The notes under the pieces are model-generated. The model saw only the letters and a program-made list of their open reading frames with translations. It did not search any database and was not told where the DNA came from. From the NCBI RefSeq assembly GCF_000420945.1, contig NZ_ATVX01000005.1:62001-126000 (forward strand): DNA of 64,000 nt. Direction: 5' to 3'. Positions 333 to 14,182 of this stretch are shown one piece after another (positions within the stretch are counted from its first letter, which is position 1; each line of letters starts with the position of its first letter). The stretch is from Butyrivibrio sp. VCB2006. Its GTDB lineage: Bacteria > Bacillota > Clostridia > Lachnospirales > Lachnospiraceae. The translations under genes were made by a program, and so were the position numbers.

Positions 333-920
333 TTAAGCAGCTTTCTTTTCTTCTTTATTTGAAGCTTCTGCCTTGGCAAAGTGTGTAAGTTCGTAAGGAA
401 GGTGCTTCATGCTGACTACAACAAGTACGATGGCGATGAACTTGTCGATGTAGTCTGTAACTGCCTGTGTAAGAAAGGCGCTTCCGAAGAGCTTTAATGC
501 TGTCTGTGAAAGAGCCTGGATAATAAAGGTAGTTACTACTGCGGAAGTGATTCCACCAAAGAGGAAGGTCTCGATGCATGCTGAAAGAGCTGATGCAGGA
601 AGTGTGATAAGAAGTGTTTTCCAGATGATTGAAACTGGCTTGTTCTTCTTGCCGTGCATGAGAAGTCCTGCAAGAACACCCATGAGAACTCCGCTAAGTG
701 AGAAGTAGATTGCATAGATATCGCCGAGGACGCCGTTTATAAGGCCGCCAACAAGAGCAGCGAGAGCGCCTGCTACAGGGCCAAGAGCGATACCTGCAAG
801 CATGGTTCCGATACTGTCAAGGAAGATTGGAAGGCTCAGTAAAAGAGCAAGCTTACTTCCTACAATGTTGATTGCTACCGCGATAGCAACAAAAGTCATT
901 TTCTTAATGTCGATTTTCAT
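333..920 (-). CDS. ECF transporter S component (possible queuine/queuosine uptake)
   Basis: A 195-residue, very hydrophobic protein with about six membrane segments and a short charged C-terminal tail ending KEEKKAA. Its N-terminal pattern (short charged start, a helix with an IVGSKL-type break, then LDSIGTMLAGIALGP followed by an Ala/Gly-rich helix) is typical of the substrate-binding S component of energy-coupling factor transporters, which share an A/A'/T module encoded elsewhere. The start at 920 is preferred because an AGGAG lies 7 bases upstream; the ATG at 926 is too close to it. It begins 14 bases after the nucleoside hydrolase stop, so the two genes are one operon. The substrate is not readable from the sequence. 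The preQ1-I-like leader and the hydrolase partner suggest a 7-deazaguanine compound; another nucleobase or vitamin remains possible. Confidence 0.8.
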   Translation of the reverse strand: MKIDIKKMTFVAIAVAINIVGSKLALLLSLPIFLDSIGTMLAGIALGPVAGALAALVGGLINGVLGDIYAIYFSLSGVLMGVLAGLLMHGKKNKPVSIIWKTLLITLPASALSACIETFLFGGITSAVVTTFIIQALSQTALKLFGSAFLTQAVTDYIDKFIAIVLVVVSMKHLPYELTHFAKAEASNKEEKKAA

Positions 921-934
921 TTTCATTCTCCTAA

Positions 935-1912
935 TCAGTATATGTATTTGGCAAAGATTTCTTTGCACTGCGCCAGTTCTATTTCAAGTATTCTAGTCAG
1001 AAACATTTCCCAGAAGGTAGTCTTATCCACATCGGTGTAGATAATTGCATTGCTTTCCTTGCGATAAAATCCCATTGAATCCACAACAGTCTGTCCAAGG
1101 CTGATTCCGCCGGTTTCTACCTGGGTAAAGGCCTCAAATCCGTTTAATATTGCAGGATTTAAGAACTGAGCAACTGCCAAAGGATCATTTATGACGCAGC
1201 CTCTTATGTGCTCCCACTCCCAGTGGAATTTAAAGTAGAACCAGGTAATCTTTTCAACAAAATCGCCCACCTTGGGATTAACTCTTTTCATCTCCTGAAG
1301 GATATCAGGAGTAAGGACGATTTCTCTTGTGACATCAAGACCTACCATTTCGATGCGGCCCTGGTGCTCATAGAGTGTGTCAAAGACAAGCCTTGCGCTG
1401 TCAGGATCTTCCCAGTAGTTGTATTCTGCAACAGGAGAGCAGTTTCCGTGGCTTCTGAAATTGCCGCCCATGGAAACCAGCCTCTTGATACTAAGAAAGG
1501 CATCAAGGTCTTCATCAATAAGTCTTGCCAGATTGGTAAGAGGTCCAAGGGCTATTACGGATACATCACCGGTTTTAAGTGTTTCCCTCATGAATGAAAC
1601 CGCAGACTTTTCGGGGATTTCCTGACCTTCTATATCAGGAAGGAAGCTCTCTCCAAGGCCATCTTCGCCGTGGGTATCAAGAGCATTTACATAATCTCTT
1701 ACTCTTGGTCTGTCTGCTCCTGCGTAAACAGGGACATCAAGTCTGTTCAAAAAGCTTAATACCTTTTTGGCATTCTTAAAGCCAAGCTCTACCGGTGAAT
1801 TACCTGCTACTATTGTGATTCCAACCACTTCGATCTCTGGGCTGTTTAAGGCAAGCATTATGGCCAGGGAATCGTCAATTCCGGGATCGCAATCAATAAT
1901 TACCTTATTCAT
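935..1912 (-). CDS. Nucleoside hydrolase, inosine-uridine hydrolase family (possible queuosine hydrolase)
   Basis: A 325-residue cytosolic N-ribohydrolase that should split a ribonucleoside into base and ribose. The family's calcium-binding motif DCDPGIDD is at residues 7-14, His81 sits in the THGEDG loop, and GNCSPVAEYN (Asn165) is the usual ribose-binding segment. The late HDP motif reads INDP (Asn242-Asp243), so the catalytic His of classical inosine-uridine hydrolases is replaced by Asn. The start at 1912 has GGAG 6 bases upstream. The gene lies behind a promoter, a preQ1-I-like aptamer and a terminator, and is followed by an ECF S component. This layout recalls the queuine salvage genes of Clostridioides difficile, in which a nucleoside hydrolase (QueK) frees queuine from queuosine. 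The family call is firm; the substrate is an inference from the leader and the neighbour. No tgt or queL is present in this window. Confidence 0.85.
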   Translation of the reverse strand: MNKVIIDCDPGIDDSLAIMLALNSPEIEVVGITIVAGNSPVELGFKNAKKVLSFLNRLDVPVYAGADRPRVRDYVNALDTHGEDGLGESFLPDIEGQEIPEKSAVSFMRETLKTGDVSVIALGPLTNLARLIDEDLDAFLSIKRLVSMGGNFRSHGNCSPVAEYNYWEDPDSARLVFDTLYEHQGRIEMVGLDVTREIVLTPDILQEMKRVNPKVGDFVEKITWFYFKFHWEWEHIRGCVINDPLAVAQFLNPAILNGFEAFTQVETGGISLGQTVVDSMGFYRKESNAIIYTDVDKTTFWEMFLTRILEIELAQCKEIFAKYIY

Positions 1913-1937
1913 TAAAAACTCCATCTGCAAAATTGCA

Positions 1938-1965
1938 TAAAAAAAGCTCTGCGAAAACGCAGAGC
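1938..1965 (-). terminator. Leader terminator of the riboswitch expression platform
   Basis: On the minus strand GCTCTGCG-TTTT-CGCAGAGC forms a perfect 8 bp stem followed at once by a run of seven or more T. It lies between the aptamer and the nucleoside hydrolase start at 1912, where a termination-type riboswitch keeps its switch hairpin. Confidence 0.85.
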
Positions 1966-1998
1966 CACACAAAAAAATCATAATAATTCCTATGCAGT

Positions 1999-2040
1999 CC
2001 TGGTTTTGTTTAGCGACAGGAAGGTACAAATGAACTGTCG
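1999..2040 (-). promoter_or_regulatory. preQ1-I-like riboswitch aptamer
   Basis: Reading the minus strand from 2040, CGACAG pairs with CTGTCG in a perfect 6 bp stem. Its loop begins TTC, followed after six bases by ACC, as in the preQ1-I consensus. Downstream of the stem is the A-rich tail CTAAACAAAACCAGG, very close to the tail of the Thermoanaerobacter tengcongensis preQ1-I aptamer. The tail's AGG can pair with the loop's CCT to form the expected H-type pseudoknot. The element starts about 10 bases after the predicted transcription start and is followed by a terminator and a nucleoside hydrolase gene. The class assignment was made by eye from the consensus and has not been tested with a covariance model. 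Confidence 0.65.
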
Positions 2041-2056
2041 TTTATAGCGCTTAGGA

Positions 2057-2085
2057 ATTATACAATGAGTTTTTTGATAATGCAA
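2057..2085 (-). promoter_or_regulatory. Sigma-A type promoter of the nucleoside hydrolase operon
   Basis: On the minus strand TTGCAT (2085-2080), a 17-base spacer and a perfect TATAAT (2062-2057) form a strong housekeeping promoter. Transcription should start near 2050, just before the riboswitch. Confidence 0.8.
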
Positions 2086-4256: not shown

Positions 4257-4730
4257 ATGGCTGAAGCTAAGAAGACAGCAGCAGTTAAGCCTGTTGCAGC
4301 AATTAAGACACCAGTAGTTACAGAAACAAAGAATGTTGAAGTTAAGAAGGTTGCTGAGCCTGTAAAGAAGCCTGCAGTTAAGAAGGCACCTGCTAAGGTT
4401 GCTAAGAAGCCTGCAGTTAAGAAGGCTGAGCCTAAGAAAGCAGCACCTGCCAAGAAAGAAGCAGCTAAGAAACCAGCAGCTAAGAAGGCACCTGCTAAGA
4501 AGGCAGCTACAAAGGCAGCTACAGAAGCTATTAAGACCAACATTGTACTTCAGTATGCTGACAAGAACGTTACATTCGATACTCTTAAAGAGAATGCTGA
4601 GAACGTTTATCAGTTTGATATGGGCAAGAATGTTGCAGATATCAAGAAGTTGGATCTTTATGTTAAACCTGAAGAGAACACAGTTTACTTCGTTGTTAAC
4701 GACAAGGAACTTGGAAACTACGGTTTATAA
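4257..4730 (+). CDS. DUF6465 family protein with a histone-H1-like Lys/Ala/Pro tail
   Basis: A 157-residue two-part protein. Roughly residues 1-90 are a low-complexity, strongly basic stretch of repeated KKPA, AKKA and KKAEPKKA units, like the tails of histone H1 and bacterial histone-like proteins, and so probably bind nucleic acid. Residues 93-157 form a compact mixed alpha/beta domain of the DUF6465 type known from Lachnospiraceae, rich in Asp, Val and Tyr and ending in DKELGNYGL. The biochemical role of DUF6465 is not known. A DNA- or RNA-binding nucleoid protein is the likeliest guess. The gene has its own promoter, a GAGGAGG ribosome binding site and a terminator. Confidence 0.7.
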   Translation: MAEAKKTAAVKPVAAIKTPVVTETKNVEVKKVAEPVKKPAVKKAPAKVAKKPAVKKAEPKKAAPAKKEAAKKPAAKKAPAKKAATKAATEAIKTNIVLQYADKNVTFDTLKENAENVYQFDMGKNVADIKKLDLYVKPEENTVYFVVNDKELGNYGL

Positions 4731-5045: not shown

Positions 5046-5060
5046 GTGGAGGAAATGTGT

Positions 5061-8000
5061 ATGAAAAGAAAAGTTGGACCCGCAAGGGTGCTGTCAGTGA
5101 TTCTTAGTGCAACTTTTGCACTGACGAATGTAGTCACTGCATCAGCTACTGCTGGGGATGACGCAGTTCTTTCCGTAAGCGAAGAAGAAGTCGTATTTTT
5201 TGGCGACGACGCTGAAACCGCTGAGGAAGAAGAAGCTACAGAATCTTCTGAAGAAGCTTCTGTAAGTGAAGATGCTGAGTCAGAAGTGGCTGAAGAAGCT
5301 GAAGAATCAGAAGCTCCTTTATTCGAGGAGGTTGATCCTGTAGAGGAAGGACTTGGAGAACTGGTTGATTCTCTTGCTGGAGAAGAGACAGATATTCCTG
5401 TAGAGGAAAAGGATCCAGATGAGCAGACTCGTGTCATCATCGTAATGGAAGGCGATGCTGTCCTTGATAAGGGCTTTGACACAGAGAATCTTGCAGAGAA
5501 CGATGCTGCTATGAACCTTTCTGAGAGCATTATTGCTGAGCAGGAAGAGACAATCGAGAAGATTGAAGAGGAAGTTCTTGATGGTGAAGAACTTGACGTT
5601 AACTACAATCTTTCAATCATTACAAACGCTGTATCAGCAGACGTTGCTTACAAAGATATTGATAATATCGTAGATGTTGAGGGTGTTGCTGCTGTATATG
5701 TTGCTCAGAAGTATGATCCACAGACAACTGCAGAGCCAATGACCATCACATCAGGTGATATGGTTGGAAGCTATACTGCTTGGGCTGCAGGATATACAGG
5801 AGCAGGCACAAGAATTGCTATCATCGATACAGGTATCGATTCAGATCACCCATCATTTGATGCAGGTGCCTTTGAGACTCACCTTGAGGAGACTGCAGAG
5901 GCAGCAGGCAAGAGTGTTGCAGATTACAATCTTCTTTCAGCAGAAGAAATCGCAGCAGTTCTTCCTAATCTTAATGTTGCACAGAGAAGCGAAGGCGTTT
6001 CAGCCGATGAGCTTTATATCAATGAGAAGATTCCTTTCGCATTTAACTATGTAGACAAGAATCTTGACGTAACACATGACAATGACGAAGAGGGCGACCA
6101 TGGTACACACGTATCTGGTATCTCAACAGCTAACTACTATGTTCCTAATGCTTCTTCTGAGACAGGCTACTCAAGACAGGAAGTTGGCGTAGTTGGTATC
6201 GCTCCAGACGCACAGCTCATTACCATGAAGGTATTTGGTACAAATGGCGGTGCATACAGTGATGACTATATGGCAGCTATCGAGGATGCTCTTCTTCTTA
6301 AGGCTGACGTAGTTAACCTTTCACTTGGTTCAAGTGCAGCCGGTTATTCTTCAGATTCTGAAGAGTATATCAACGAGATATTCAAAAAGCTCGAGGGTAC
6401 AAGCACCGTAGTATCTATCTCAGCAGGTAACTCAGGACGTTGGGCTGATGATACAACATACGGCGTAAACCTTAGCAAGGATGTTAACCAGGATACAGTA
6501 GGATCTCCGGGATCTTATACAAACGCTCTTACTGTAGCAAGTGCTGTTAACAGCGGACTTGTTGGTAACTACTTCGCAACAGCAGATGGCAAGGCTATCT
6601 TCTACAGCGATGGTAATGAAACACTTGCTCCTAAGTTCGAGACTCTTGATGTAAACGGCGATGGAACAGAGTATCCATTCGTTCTTCTTGCAGCAAAGGG
6701 TGAGCCTGAGGACTACGAGGGTGTTGATGTTACAGATAAGATCGTATTTGTTCAGCGTGGTGCTATCACATTCGGTCAGAAACAGATGAATGCAGAAGCT
6801 GCAGGCGCTAAGGCAGTTGTTATCTACAACAACCAGCCTGGTACAATCAGCATGACACTTCAGGGAAGCACAGCTGTTATCCCTTGTGTATCAATCACAC
6901 TTGCTGATGCTGAGCTCATTGCTTCAGGTGCAGAGCAGATTTCTGATACAGCATTTGCTGGAACAATCACAGTAACATCAAAGATCGGTGTTAAGACTGA
7001 TACAGCTGATGGTTACACAATGAGTGATTTCTCATCATACGGTGTTCCAGGAACTCTTGATCTTAAGCCTGAGATTACAGCACCTGGTGGAAATATCTAC
7101 TCAACAAGAGACAATGGTACTTATGGCCTCATGAGTGGTACTTCAATGGCTGCTCCTTCTATTTCAGGTCAGAGTGCTCTTGTAGAGCAGTACATTCGTG
7201 AGAATGGTCTTGCAGATAAGACAGGTCTTTCTGTTCGTACTCTTGCTCAGTCACTTATGATGGCTACAGCTATTCCTCTTCACGAGGATAATGATCCTGA
7301 GGCTCCTGAGTTCTCACCAAGATCACAGGGCGCAGGTCTTGCAAATGTATATAATGCGGTAACCACTCCTGTTTATGCTCTTGTTGGTGACAAGGAAGGC
7401 AATGACGGTAAGGTTAAGGCAGTTCTTGGGGATGACCCGGCAAAGAATGGCAATTACAATTTCTCTTTTGACCTTTACAACCTGACAGATGATGTTCAGT
7501 ACTATGTTCTTGATTCTTCAGTTCTTACTGAGGAGCTCTATGAGCAGAGTGGTGTAACATTCTTCGCAGGAACATCACATGTGCTTAACCCTGTAGTATC
7601 ACTTACTGCAGATGACACAGCACTTGTATATGACTTCAACGGAGACGGAAGAGTTAATAAGACAGATAAGAAGATCTTCCTTATGGCAGTTAACGGATCT
7701 GTAGAGGATCCTGTTCTTGAGCTTTATCAGGATTACTTCGACCTTAACCAGGACGGAGTTGTTAATACCAAGGACGTATATCTCTTTGGTAAGGTACTTA
7801 AGGGCAAGTCAGATGTTGCAGATCTTGGTCTTGAGGTTGTTCGTGTAGATGACAGCACAAAGATTGATGTTCAGATCTCACTTTCAGACGCAGACAGAGA
7901 GTATCTTGCAGGATTTGAAAATGGTATCTATGTAGACGGTTTCGTTTATGTAAATGGTAACGTTGATCTTTCAGTTCCTTTTCTTGCTTTCTACGGAGAC

Positions 8001-9326
8001 TGGGGCGATTCACCAATGTTTGAGGACTATGACTTCGAGGAGTATGTACACAACCCTGATTACGACCCTCAGACATACACAGGAGTCAGCAAGACAAACT
8101 TCCTGTCAATCTTCCCATACGGCGGAAGCAACGAGATGTACTATGTTCCTAACCTCTTTGCAGATGATGCTGCATATGTAGCAGACAGAAATGCTATCAG
8201 CTCAGAGAACGGAACAATGATCGGAAGTCAGTATTACTCACTTATCAGAAATGCTAACAGAGTAATCATGACAATTACAGATAAGAGTACCGGAGAAGTT
8301 TACTTCAAGAATACTGAGTATGAGAACTACGCAGCATTCTCATACAACGGACAGTGGCAGAACTACATTCAGTGGCAGGATCTTATGTGGGCCGGCACTG
8401 ACTTAGAGGGTAACCCTCTTGAGGATGGCACTGAGGTTGATATCACAATCCAGGCAGTTCCAAGCTACTTCGATAACGTAGAAGATCCAAGCACACTTAA
8501 GAATGCCGGAATGTACCTTTCAACACCAATGGCTATCGATAACACCAAGCCAGTTCTTACAGATGCTGTTAAGACAGAAGACGGTAACTACGAGCTTACA
8601 GTTTACGATAACAGATACACAGCAGCAGCTCTTATTCTTGACAGAGAAGGCGAGATCATCGGCAGATATGCAGTTGATCAGCTTGAGAAGGATACAGATG
8701 CAGTTGTAACAATCAAGGCTCCAGAAGATGTATTCTATGTAGAGCTCTTTGACTACGCTTGCAACGGAACTGTATACCGCTTCAACAACACAGGACATGC
8801 TGATACCAAGTACGTAACAGATATTACTCTTAGCGCTGATGAAGTTACTCTTAAGCAGAACTATCAGGTACAGGTTAAGGCAACAGTTGGTCCTAAGTGG
8901 CTTGCTGAAGGTTATGATGCTGTAGTTTGGTCATCTTCAGATGAAGATGTTGCAGTAGTTGACGAGGATGGTTACATCCTTGCAGTTAAGGTAGGAACAG
9001 CTACAGTAACAGCTACAACACTTGCTACTGACAAGAAGGGCAACCACCTTTCAGCTGATGTTAAGGTAACTGTTATTCCATTGAACAGTAAAAACGACGC
9101 TGCAGATGAAGATGCAAGCGCAGTAGATGCATCTGATGATGCTGCAGATGAAGCAGTTGAAGAAGCTTCTGATGATGAGGCAGGTGAAGTATTCTTTGAC
9201 ATTACTGACAAGGTAAAGACAGCTTCTGTAGAGGAAGCAAGTTTAGAAACTAGTGTAGAGGATTCAGAGGCATCTGTAGAGGCAGCTTCAGAAGAGACTA
9301 CAGAAGGAGGAGAGAATGATGATTAA
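5061..9326 (+). CDS. Secreted S8 subtilisin-like protease with PA, dockerin and Ig-like domains
   Basis: A 1421-residue exported serine protease. The ATG at 5061 is chosen because GGAGG lies 8 bases upstream; a GTG at 5046 overlaps that site. In order: signal peptide (about 1-30), acidic Glu/Ser-rich linker (30-110), a region that may act as propeptide (to about 225), then the S8 domain with the catalytic triad Asp256 (IIDTGID), His347 (DHGTHVSG) and Ser695 (SGTSMAAPS). A PA-type insert lies between His and Ser, as in C5a peptidase and lactocepin. Near residues 855-915 two calcium loops, DFNGDGRVNKTD and DLNQDGVVNTKD, form a dockerin type I pair. A Big_2 Ig-like domain lies near 1250-1330, and the tail is rich in Ala, Ser, Asp and Glu with no LPXTG or membrane anchor. 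It overlaps the cohesin-like gene by 11 bases, which suggests the two products act together. The peptide substrates are unknown. Confidence 0.9.
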   Translation: MKRKVGPARVLSVILSATFALTNVVTASATAGDDAVLSVSEEEVVFFGDDAETAEEEEATESSEEASVSEDAESEVAEEAEESEAPLFEEVDPVEEGLGELVDSLAGEETDIPVEEKDPDEQTRVIIVMEGDAVLDKGFDTENLAENDAAMNLSESIIAEQEETIEKIEEEVLDGEELDVNYNLSIITNAVSADVAYKDIDNIVDVEGVAAVYVAQKYDPQTTAEPMTITSGDMVGSYTAWAAGYTGAGTRIAIIDTGIDSDHPSFDAGAFETHLEETAEAAGKSVADYNLLSAEEIAAVLPNLNVAQRSEGVSADELYINEKIPFAFNYVDKNLDVTHDNDEEGDHGTHVSGISTANYYVPNASSETGYSRQEVGVVGIAPDAQLITMKVFGTNGGAYSDDYMAAIEDALLLKADVVNLSLGSSAAGYSSDSEEYINEIFKKLEGTSTVVSISAGNSGRWADDTTYGVNLSKDVNQDTVGSPGSYTNALTVASAVNSGLVGNYFATADGKAIFYSDGNETLAPKFETLDVNGDGTEYPFVLLAAKGEPEDYEGVDVTDKIVFVQRGAITFGQKQMNAEAAGAKAVVIYNNQPGTISMTLQGSTAVIPCVSITLADAELIASGAEQISDTAFAGTITVTSKIGVKTDTADGYTMSDFSSYGVPGTLDLKPEITAPGGNIYSTRDNGTYGLMSGTSMAAPSISGQSALVEQYIRENGLADKTGLSVRTLAQSLMMATAIPLHEDNDPEAPEFSPRSQGAGLANVYNAVTTPVYALVGDKEGNDGKVKAVLGDDPAKNGNYNFSFDLYNLTDDVQYYVLDSSVLTEELYEQSGVTFFAGTSHVLNPVVSLTADDTALVYDFNGDGRVNKTDKKIFLMAVNGSVEDPVLELYQDYFDLNQDGVVNTKDVYLFGKVLKGKSDVADLGLEVVRVDDSTKIDVQISLSDADREYLAGFENGIYVDGFVYVNGNVDLSVPFLAFYGDWGDSPMFEDYDFEEYVHNPDYDPQTYTGVSKTNFLSIFPYGGSNEMYYVPNLFADDAAYVADRNAISSENGTMIGSQYYSLIRNANRVIMTITDKSTGEVYFKNTEYENYAAFSYNGQWQNYIQWQDLMWAGTDLEGNPLEDGTEVDITIQAVPSYFDNVEDPSTLKNAGMYLSTPMAIDNTKPVLTDAVKTEDGNYELTVYDNRYTAAALILDREGEIIGRYAVDQLEKDTDAVVTIKAPEDVFYVELFDYACNGTVYRFNNTGHADTKYVTDITLSADEVTLKQNYQVQVKATVGPKWLAEGYDAVVWSSSDEDVAVVDEDGYILAVKVGTATVTATTLATDKKGNHLSADVKVTVIPLNSKNDAADEDASAVDASDDAADEAVEEASDDEAGEVFFDITDKVKTASVEEASLETSVEDSEASVEAASEETTEGGENDD

Positions 9327-12107: not shown

Positions 12108-12119
12108 GTGATATAAGGA

Positions 12120-12169
12120 TTCAAAGTTTCAAATATACATGCTTGCATGGATATATTTGAAACCTTGAA
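12120..12169 (+). repeat. Long hairpin between grpE and dnaK
   Basis: A left arm of about 23 bases (12120-12142, containing GTTTCAAATATA and ending CATGC) pairs with a right arm of 25 bases (12145-12169, starting GCATG), with one mismatch and a two-base bulge; only TT lies between the arms. No T run follows, so it does not look like an intrinsic terminator. In the transcript it would form a stable rod 130 bases before dnaK, and could be an RNA processing or stability element. Confidence 0.75.
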
Positions 12170-12223
12170 GACTGAACAGACATGAGGAAGTAGGCAGATA
12201 TGCCGGATTCCGAATGGATGTAG

Positions 12224-14182
<1,959 letters not shown>

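Follow-up and report, generated by a model that had tools for sequence, protein, structure and literature searches.

A candidate long-loop preQ1-I riboswitch preceding a putative queuosine salvage operon in Butyrivibrio and queuosine genes in other Clostridia

What kind of RNA precedes the nucleoside hydrolase and ECF transporter genes of Butyrivibrio sp. VCB2006, and what might it control? The first-pass annotation of the window (the whole 64,000-nucleotide stretch of DNA analysed here) proposed a leader close to known preQ1-I aptamers with a queuosine salvage operon behind it. We consider it probable, at roughly 0.85, that the leader is a terminating riboswitch of the preQ1-I lineage, with a 15-nt loop and a longer P2 helix, that controls a QueK-type hydrolase and a QrtT-type importer. 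This reading follows from the conservation of the leader, its association with particular genes, the covariation of P1 and P2, the competition for a shared strand, the kinship of the operon with queK-qrtT-queL and the lack of above-cut-off matches for two preQ1 synthesis genes. The parts of the locus are as follows.

2057..2062, minus strand: -10 box TATAAT (direct reading; absent from the consensus scan list)
2014..2040, minus strand: P1 aptamer hairpin, CGACAG/CTGTCG with a 15-nt loop (direct reading; pairs covary over 135 sequences)
2023..2027, minus strand: P2 5' strand in the loop, G-Y-[R]-C-C (covariation with 2000-1997)
2003..2013, minus strand: A-rich L3, CTAAACAAAAC, whose last base is the C aligned with C31 of type I preQ1-I
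1997..2000, minus strand: P2 3' strand GGAC, common to P2 and the antiterminator (covariation and fold)
1987..2002, minus strand: antiterminator 5' strand, with its partner at 1975-1960 (transcript folded without the terminator 3' arm)
1945..1966, minus strand: intrinsic terminator hairpin with a U run immediately 3' (terminator scan and fold)
935..1912, minus strand: nucleoside hydrolase, QueK-type by operon context, 325 aa (PF01156, 292.7 bits; operon and clade)
333..920, minus strand: ECF S component, QrtT-type by operon position, 195 aa (PF12822)

The whole leader core occupies 2040-1996 of the minus strand. Its 6-bp P1 stem pairs 2040-2035 with 2019-2014 and encloses the loop TTCATTTGTACCTTC (2034-2020), and the A-rich tail CTAAACAAAACCAGGACT (2013-1996) follows. 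Stem, loop and tail could be read directly where the first-pass annotation had placed them, and the 27-nt stem-loop has a single copy in the window at up to three mismatches, with 0 of 100 shuffles yielding one. The terminator claimed behind it was also recovered, as the one hairpin with a U run in the scan against a mean of 0.2 in shuffled sequence. By eye, two related loci (L007 and L008) carry stretches rich in inverted repeats between the terminator and the hydrolase start. The description of the promoter as strong holds for the perfect TATAAT but not for the -35 hexamer, TTGCAT (2085-2080, minus strand), which lies a 17-nt spacer away and matches at three of six positions; the TTGCAT/TATAAT pair is absent from the output of the consensus promoter scan of the window. 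Hexamers resembling TTG...TATAAT were seen by eye at about the same place in relatives. On the plus strand, divergent from the riboswitch operon, lies a 107-aa open reading frame (2176-2499) that looks PilZ-like by eye and matches neither Pfam nor NCBIfam models at E ≤ 0.001. The same strand carries a 157-aa frame with AK/PAKKA repeats (4257-4730), histone-H1-like by eye, and a 1426-aa frame (5046-9326) whose translation alone, judged by eye, resembles a subtilisin-type protease that is secreted and carries a dockerin-like repeat (DFNGDGRVNKTDKK).

Does the Rfam PreQ1 model (RF00522) recognise this leader? It did not report the site at its gathering score and listed nothing there at E ≤ 10 in a 401-base stretch of the window, and in the whole genome the leader was not found among the 150 scored of 622 first-look candidates. 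The same model (Rfam 15) reached gathering in 0 of 40 long-form sources (the window and two sets of 19 and 20 loci) and listed nothing at E ≤ 10 in three short long-form loci. We considered this failure as proof of novelty and dropped the idea, because the model also misses, at gathering, 18 related loci with loops of 12-13 nt; the miss of the long form therefore partly reflects a strict model. Two 12-nt-loop copies score near 25 bits with it. Weak matches at the site to other Rfam families (L10 leader, GcvB and others) were likewise rejected, being far below gathering and resting largely on the terminator. The covariance search suggested for the leader thus returned no Rfam match, but the strong conservation expected of it in relatives was found, as described below. 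Elsewhere in the window, a Clostridiales-1 RNA (RF01699) lies at 12109-12260 (plus strand), with 102.8 bits where gathering is set at 48. A TwoAYGGAY RNA (RF01731, 104.1 bits) lies at L136:358-522, in a locus where a 12-nt-loop preQ1-I-like leader precedes queL-yhhQ homologues.

How widespread is the long-loop leader? A hydrolase search in 99 related genomes gave 19 loci, 15 of which have the same leader core upstream, 14 with the stem CGACAG and one (L021) with TGACAG. A DNA pattern search of 79 genomes of the genus added further copies, one of them (L031) upstream of queD-queE, together with a recurring variant, TTCGTTTGCACCATC, which precedes a YhhQ-type queuosine precursor transporter and then a radical SAM protein that matches the queuine lyase of PDB 6p78 at 7e-27. 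We then searched 397 genomes of the family with a covariance model, R1, built from 20 long-form sequences with P1 as its only structure: 238 had a match at E ≤ 0.1, about 40 of which could be chance. Among 90 of the best matches, the loop was of 15 nt in 72, of 12 nt in 17 and of 13 nt in one; two further matches were excluded by eye, one in L134 (a second, chance match of 15 nt) and one in L075 (11 nt). In all 18 short-loop loci a queuosine gene lies no more than 2.4 kb downstream, at 1.9 kb in L143 and behind another gene in four. A pattern scan of 84,980 species genomes yielded at least 120 stretches. Pooling under a strict regular expression gave at least 201 distinct 15-nt-loop leaders, from the hydrolase search (15), the pattern search (12), R1 (65) and the species scan (at least 109); five 15-nt-loop loci (L080, L121, L126, L128 and L129) fall outside that expression and belong neither to this set nor to the 135 elements used below. 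The 201 come mostly from Lachnospiraceae and Oscillospiraceae: 92 from the family genomes searched, 35 from Lachnospiraceae records, 32 from Oscillospiraceae and 12 from others, with 30 lacking a family name.

Queuosine genes (queDEC, queF, yhhQ, queT or a queL homologue) follow 177 of the 201, and the hydrolase-ECF pair follows 19. The first downstream gene of these 196 is queD in 124, yhhQ in 38, the hydrolase in 19, queC in nine, queT in four and queF in two, and its match starts less than 600 nt away in 193 and about 2 kb away in two (L090 and L240). The five leaders with no gene match have just 127-203 nt left before the sequence ends, and every one of the 192 with at least 400 nt downstream shows a match. 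We drew reference proteins from the loci themselves and checked their family names by HMM: those for QueC, QueD, QueE and QueF exceed the NCBIfam cut-offs, two of the three for YhhQ do so and all three have a Pfam match, and QueT was named by Pfam. Because 15 of the 19 hydrolase leaders entered through the hydrolase search, the others (L027, L043, L049 and L063) coming by DNA pattern or R1 alone, the figure of 19 is no free estimate. In eight loci from other genomes of the genus (L026, L029, L030, L040, L042, L044, L048 and L053), the long-loop leader stands before yhhQ and a queL homologue, an arrangement that by its sequence is an alternative salvage module to queK-qrtT under one switch form. 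Conservation of the leader in relatives, on which the original proposal depended, is therefore present, in that it precedes queuosine genes both there and in other Clostridia.

Is the pseudoknot characteristic of preQ1-I supported by these sequences? Structure statistics were computed on 135 distinct 45-nt long-form elements. In P1, four of the six pairs show double-sided changes. In P2, G13-Y14-(R15)-C16-C17 of the loop pairs with G34-G35-R36-C37 of the tail, and the two helices together have six pairs that change on both sides. Their cells are paired at 99.3%, compared with 92.0% (sd 0.4) after shuffling, none of 500 shuffles being as high, and slid registers pair just 34-42% of cells. Pair 14-36 is UA in 70 elements, CG in 40, UG in 25 and CA in none, and C16-G35 becomes UA once. 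Although the scan pattern and the regular expression required many other constant letters, they left Y free at position 14 and R free at 36; the absence of CA was therefore not built in by the selection. On a tree of QueD and QueE (115 rows), position 14 changed 14 times and position 36 changed 24 times; independent pairs changed in the same direction in 5.4 of 8 cases and never in the opposite one (median p 0.03), and the reverse test from position 36 gave 4.8 of 10, again never opposite (median p 0.06). Loop position 15 and tail position 32 are suggestive by counts (AC 75, AU 35, GC 25, GU 0), but this pairing found no support on the QueD and QueE tree, where the tree-based pairs are too few. 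We had also considered UUUGU/ACAAA as P2; it hardly varies and can hardly be tested, its tail part lying inside the constant A-rich L3, and the covarying helix GY[R]CC/GGRC replaces it. The L3 motif AAA.AAAAC is present in all 135 elements, nearly all of its letters having been demanded by the regular expression that selected them. Both helices of the preQ1-I H-type pseudoknot, P1 and P2, thus covary.

How would such a pseudoknot act on transcription? The 5' arm of the terminator pairs with 2002-1987, a strand that includes the 3' strand of P2, and a transcript folded without the terminator 3' arm forms the antiterminator (2002-1987 with 1975-1960). A terminator scan of the 201 leaders found one in 173 and none in 28. 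Across loci, the tail strand pairs with its own terminator arm at -9.8 kcal/mol, compared with -7.3 (sd 0.16) when arms are permuted between loci, the lowest mean in 200 permutations being -7.8 kcal/mol; this pairing involves two or more of the four P2 bases in 160 of the 173. Since P2 and the antiterminator exclude each other, the ligand is predicted to switch the operon off. When preQ1 is plentiful, it would bind at the junction of P1 and P2, and P2 would form, taking its 3' strand from the antiterminator, so that the terminator would fold and transcription would stop; when preQ1 is scarce, the antiterminator would form and the operon would be transcribed. Blocking the P2 strands left the whole-leader minimum free energy of the window leader unchanged, and in this simple model the competition would therefore act during transcription. 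Both the ligand, preQ1, and the direction of control are what we infer from sequence.

To which of the known preQ1-I types does the long form belong? According to the portion of PMC11625349 available, type I is marked by UU after the P1 5' strand, UC before the P1 3' strand and a conserved tail C. The window leader and each of the 135 elements carry all three, most of these letters having been demanded by the search patterns. As given in the available part of PMC8752633, C17 and C31 of type I read two stacked ligands, and counterparts of both are present. We therefore read the long form as a homologue of type I whose loop is longer and whose P2 has been re-made, and as a member of no listed subtype. 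It shares with type I (RF00522; Can structure, PMC8752633) the H-type pseudoknot, a P1 of 5-6 bp, the A-rich L3 and the queuosine genes. It differs in its loop (15 rather than 12 nt), in its longer P2, G-Y-[R]-C-C/G-G-R-C, with a bulged purine, in tail position 32 (C in 100 of 135 and in the window, U in 35, whereas the canonical copies seen have a CUA tail) and in going unreported by RF00522 at gathering. Type III, as described in the accessible portion of PMC10622847, likewise pairs two C of the loop with two G of the tail at the base of P2, but its loop is shorter, AC precedes its P1 3' strand, and it is nearly confined to Pseudomonadota. Many relatives with a 12-nt loop have UUCGUGACCAUC in place of the long-form UUCGUUUGYACCAUC, with nearly identical stems and tails; R1, built on long forms only, scores 12-nt-loop copies at 26-49 bits, and RF00522 gives one of them 25 bits. 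The same genome has a second preQ1-I-like leader, with a 12-nt loop (L001:1501-1548, C2; RF00522, 25.3 bits), before queT (1559-2101; PF06177), with an AAAGGAG motif directly after its tail. The first impression of closeness to known preQ1-I aptamers was therefore right as to lineage but not as to form, the 15-nt loop being no standard preQ1-I, and the best label is that of a further, apparently unlisted preQ1-I loop form controlling queK-qrtT.

The alternative that survives best is that this loop already lies inside the published type I alignment (McCown 2014), so that just an extra operon is new. The retention of all three type I hallmarks speaks for it, with the same reservation about the required letters, as do a locus with an intermediate 13-nt loop (L143) and the frequency of type I in Clostridia stated in the available portion of PMC10622847. 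The silence of RF00522 in all 40 long-form sources points the other way, and the available portions of PMC11625349, PMC8752633, PMC11477304 and PMC10622847 speak of three subtypes without mentioning a longer loop. Nor is a long-loop form described in the parts available of the open-licence literature on preQ1 riboswitches (Butyrivibrio, Lachnospiraceae, Clostridia variants, CD3073). We regard this alternative as a serious one, though less likely than not.

What do the two genes do? The pairing of a hydrolase with an ECF S component 14 bases past its reading frame was reproduced, with PF01156 and PF12822 both above cut-off (39.9 bits against 30.7 for the latter); the S component reaches 89.5 bits with the CD3073 family NF045596, below its cut-off of 180, and has no match among solved structures. 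The hydrolase is found at E ≤ 1e-55 in 30 of the 397 family genomes. We collected 28 operon loci from other genera of the family (L281-L308, L281 being the same place as L063). In every one the S component follows the hydrolase, and in 20 it stands between the hydrolase and a QueL homologue, one of which, tested against the queuine lyase of PDB 6p78, gave 7.5e-77; the window operon has no queL. By regular expression, the leader is a 12-nt-loop preQ1-I at 20 of these loci, the long form at one (L281) and neither at seven, and 19 of the 20 tested (L282-L301) reached RF00522 gathering. In C. difficile, as far as the available portion of PMC11477304 goes, a preQ1-I riboswitch lies upstream of queK, qrtT and queL, which encode a queuosine hydrolase, an S component for the uptake of preQ1, queuosine (Q) and queuine (q), and a lyase that makes preQ1 from q. 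Compared with this description, the operon in the window has the same order of hydrolase and S component, a preQ1-type leader and a host that seems to lack preQ1 synthesis, but its leader is long-looped and a search of the genome returned no queL.

The hydrolases of the loci collected here were placed on a quick tree of 50 rows, with SH-aLRT as branch support and nine of 47 inner branches starred. The long-leader operons nest together in 20 rows (support 88; L010 has no leader), 19 of them with support 99. Around them lies a group of 25 rows (support 90) in which no queL was seen immediately after the S component, and this group in turn falls inside the wider family set. Judged from these sequences, the operon seems to have switched leader forms within the family, and no other observation argues more strongly for preQ1 having remained the ligand. 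One locus (L013, G008:C69) has a hydrolase open frame with one internal TGA. In the hydrolase motif GCVINDPLAV, Asn-Asp occurs in 22 of 23 loci and in 27 of the 28 family loci, and alignments place His-Asp there in five solved relatives. Since a 7-deaza base offers no N7 for protonation, loss of the usual acid (His to Asn) would fit such a substrate. Together, the hydrolase and the ECF importer would import 7-deazaguanine nucleosides or bases of the queuosine type and release the base, these substrates being what we infer for both proteins from their sequences and setting.

Is the organism itself a salvager? The suggested genome search for tgt, queF and the ECF module bore out the idea: tgt is present, QueA lies above cut-off, QueC and QueF have no match above cut-off, and four EcfT-type proteins (PF02361) do. 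Among 79 genomes of the genus, QueC and QueF are above cut-off in two each and QueA in 74, with a QueC piece below cut-off in a third genome (G058). With tgt and QueA present and QueC and QueF without a match above cut-off, as expected of a salvager, the organism most likely salvages. QueL, sought by sequence and by profile (E ≤ 1e-30 and E ≤ 1e-12, respectively), was found in 20 of the 79 genomes but not in this one, nor in any of the 18 that have a long-leader hydrolase operon (Fisher p 0.004, not corrected for the tree). Queuine freed by QueK could therefore not obviously become preQ1. The salvage reading thus keeps its support from operon kinship and queuosine gene association, but the third gene of the known operon was not found in this genome.

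This gap leads to another proposal, namely that the hydrolase of the genus frees preQ1 from a preQ1 nucleoside rather than queuine, with TGT and QueA using preQ1 and QueL missing. The distribution of QueL just described fits it, as does the absence of queL right behind several of the nearest relatives outside the genus; so does the TGT of this organism, which reads FDECP and GGLAVGE, residues that we take to be of the preQ1 type. An unrelated lyase or a relaxed TGT could nevertheless stand in for QueL, and QrtT may simply import preQ1. Moreover, Q is the main form in tRNA, and this too counts against a preQ1 nucleoside as the source. We find the proposal rather unlikely.

If the riboswitch belongs to the preQ1-I lineage, might the long form nevertheless sense another 7-deazaguanine, such as queuine, queuosine or preQ0? 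Its loop length, position 32 and P2 are unlike those of known types, and some copies precede genes that salvage other forms (the hydrolase, or yhhQ together with a queL homologue). But 124 of the 196 gene contexts start with queD, which belongs to the pathway that makes preQ1; the positions with which type I reads its ligand have constant counterparts, in part through our selection; and the long form replaces a standard preQ1-I in a related operon. A change of ligand is accordingly improbable in our view. The idea that an ordinary pyrimidine or purine nucleosidase and the S component of a vitamin importer share this leader by chance, to which RihC and RihA lend something as the best NCBIfam models though far below cut-off (210.5 against 382 and 205.1 against 433), is very hard to reconcile with the S component behind the hydrolase at all 28 family loci, the QueL homologues at 20, the RF00522 matches at 19 of the 20 tested and the Asn-Asp where five solved relatives show His-Asp. 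The first-pass reading of the hydrolase gains support, as far as operon context goes, from this family-wide operon, with its frequent QueL homologue and its mostly standard preQ1-I leaders.

Returning to the terminating preQ1-I-lineage riboswitch as our preferred reading, we see the chances as evenly poised for a broader proposal. The long form would be an undocumented fourth preQ1-I subtype, widespread in Clostridia and mainly terminating, with a 15-nt loop and a longer, covarying P2 whose bulged purine perhaps reaches tail position 32. In Butyrivibrio, a queK-qrtT operon lacking queL would have exchanged its standard preQ1-I for this form, and these bacteria would make usable preQ1 from a 7-deazaguanine nucleoside, bypassing the known queuine lyase.

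What appears to be new here is a widespread long-loop form that Rfam 15 leaves unreported at gathering in all 40 sources. It raises a metabolic question, namely how bacteria that have a QueK-type hydrolase together with TGT and QueA, yet no detectable QueL, would use salvaged queuosine. In many Clostridia, rumen and gut species included, queuosine operons would be controlled by a riboswitch that goes unreported in current RNA annotation. The related operons with two loop forms would constitute a natural experiment in aptamer evolution, in which P2 and the ligand pocket may be compared side by side.
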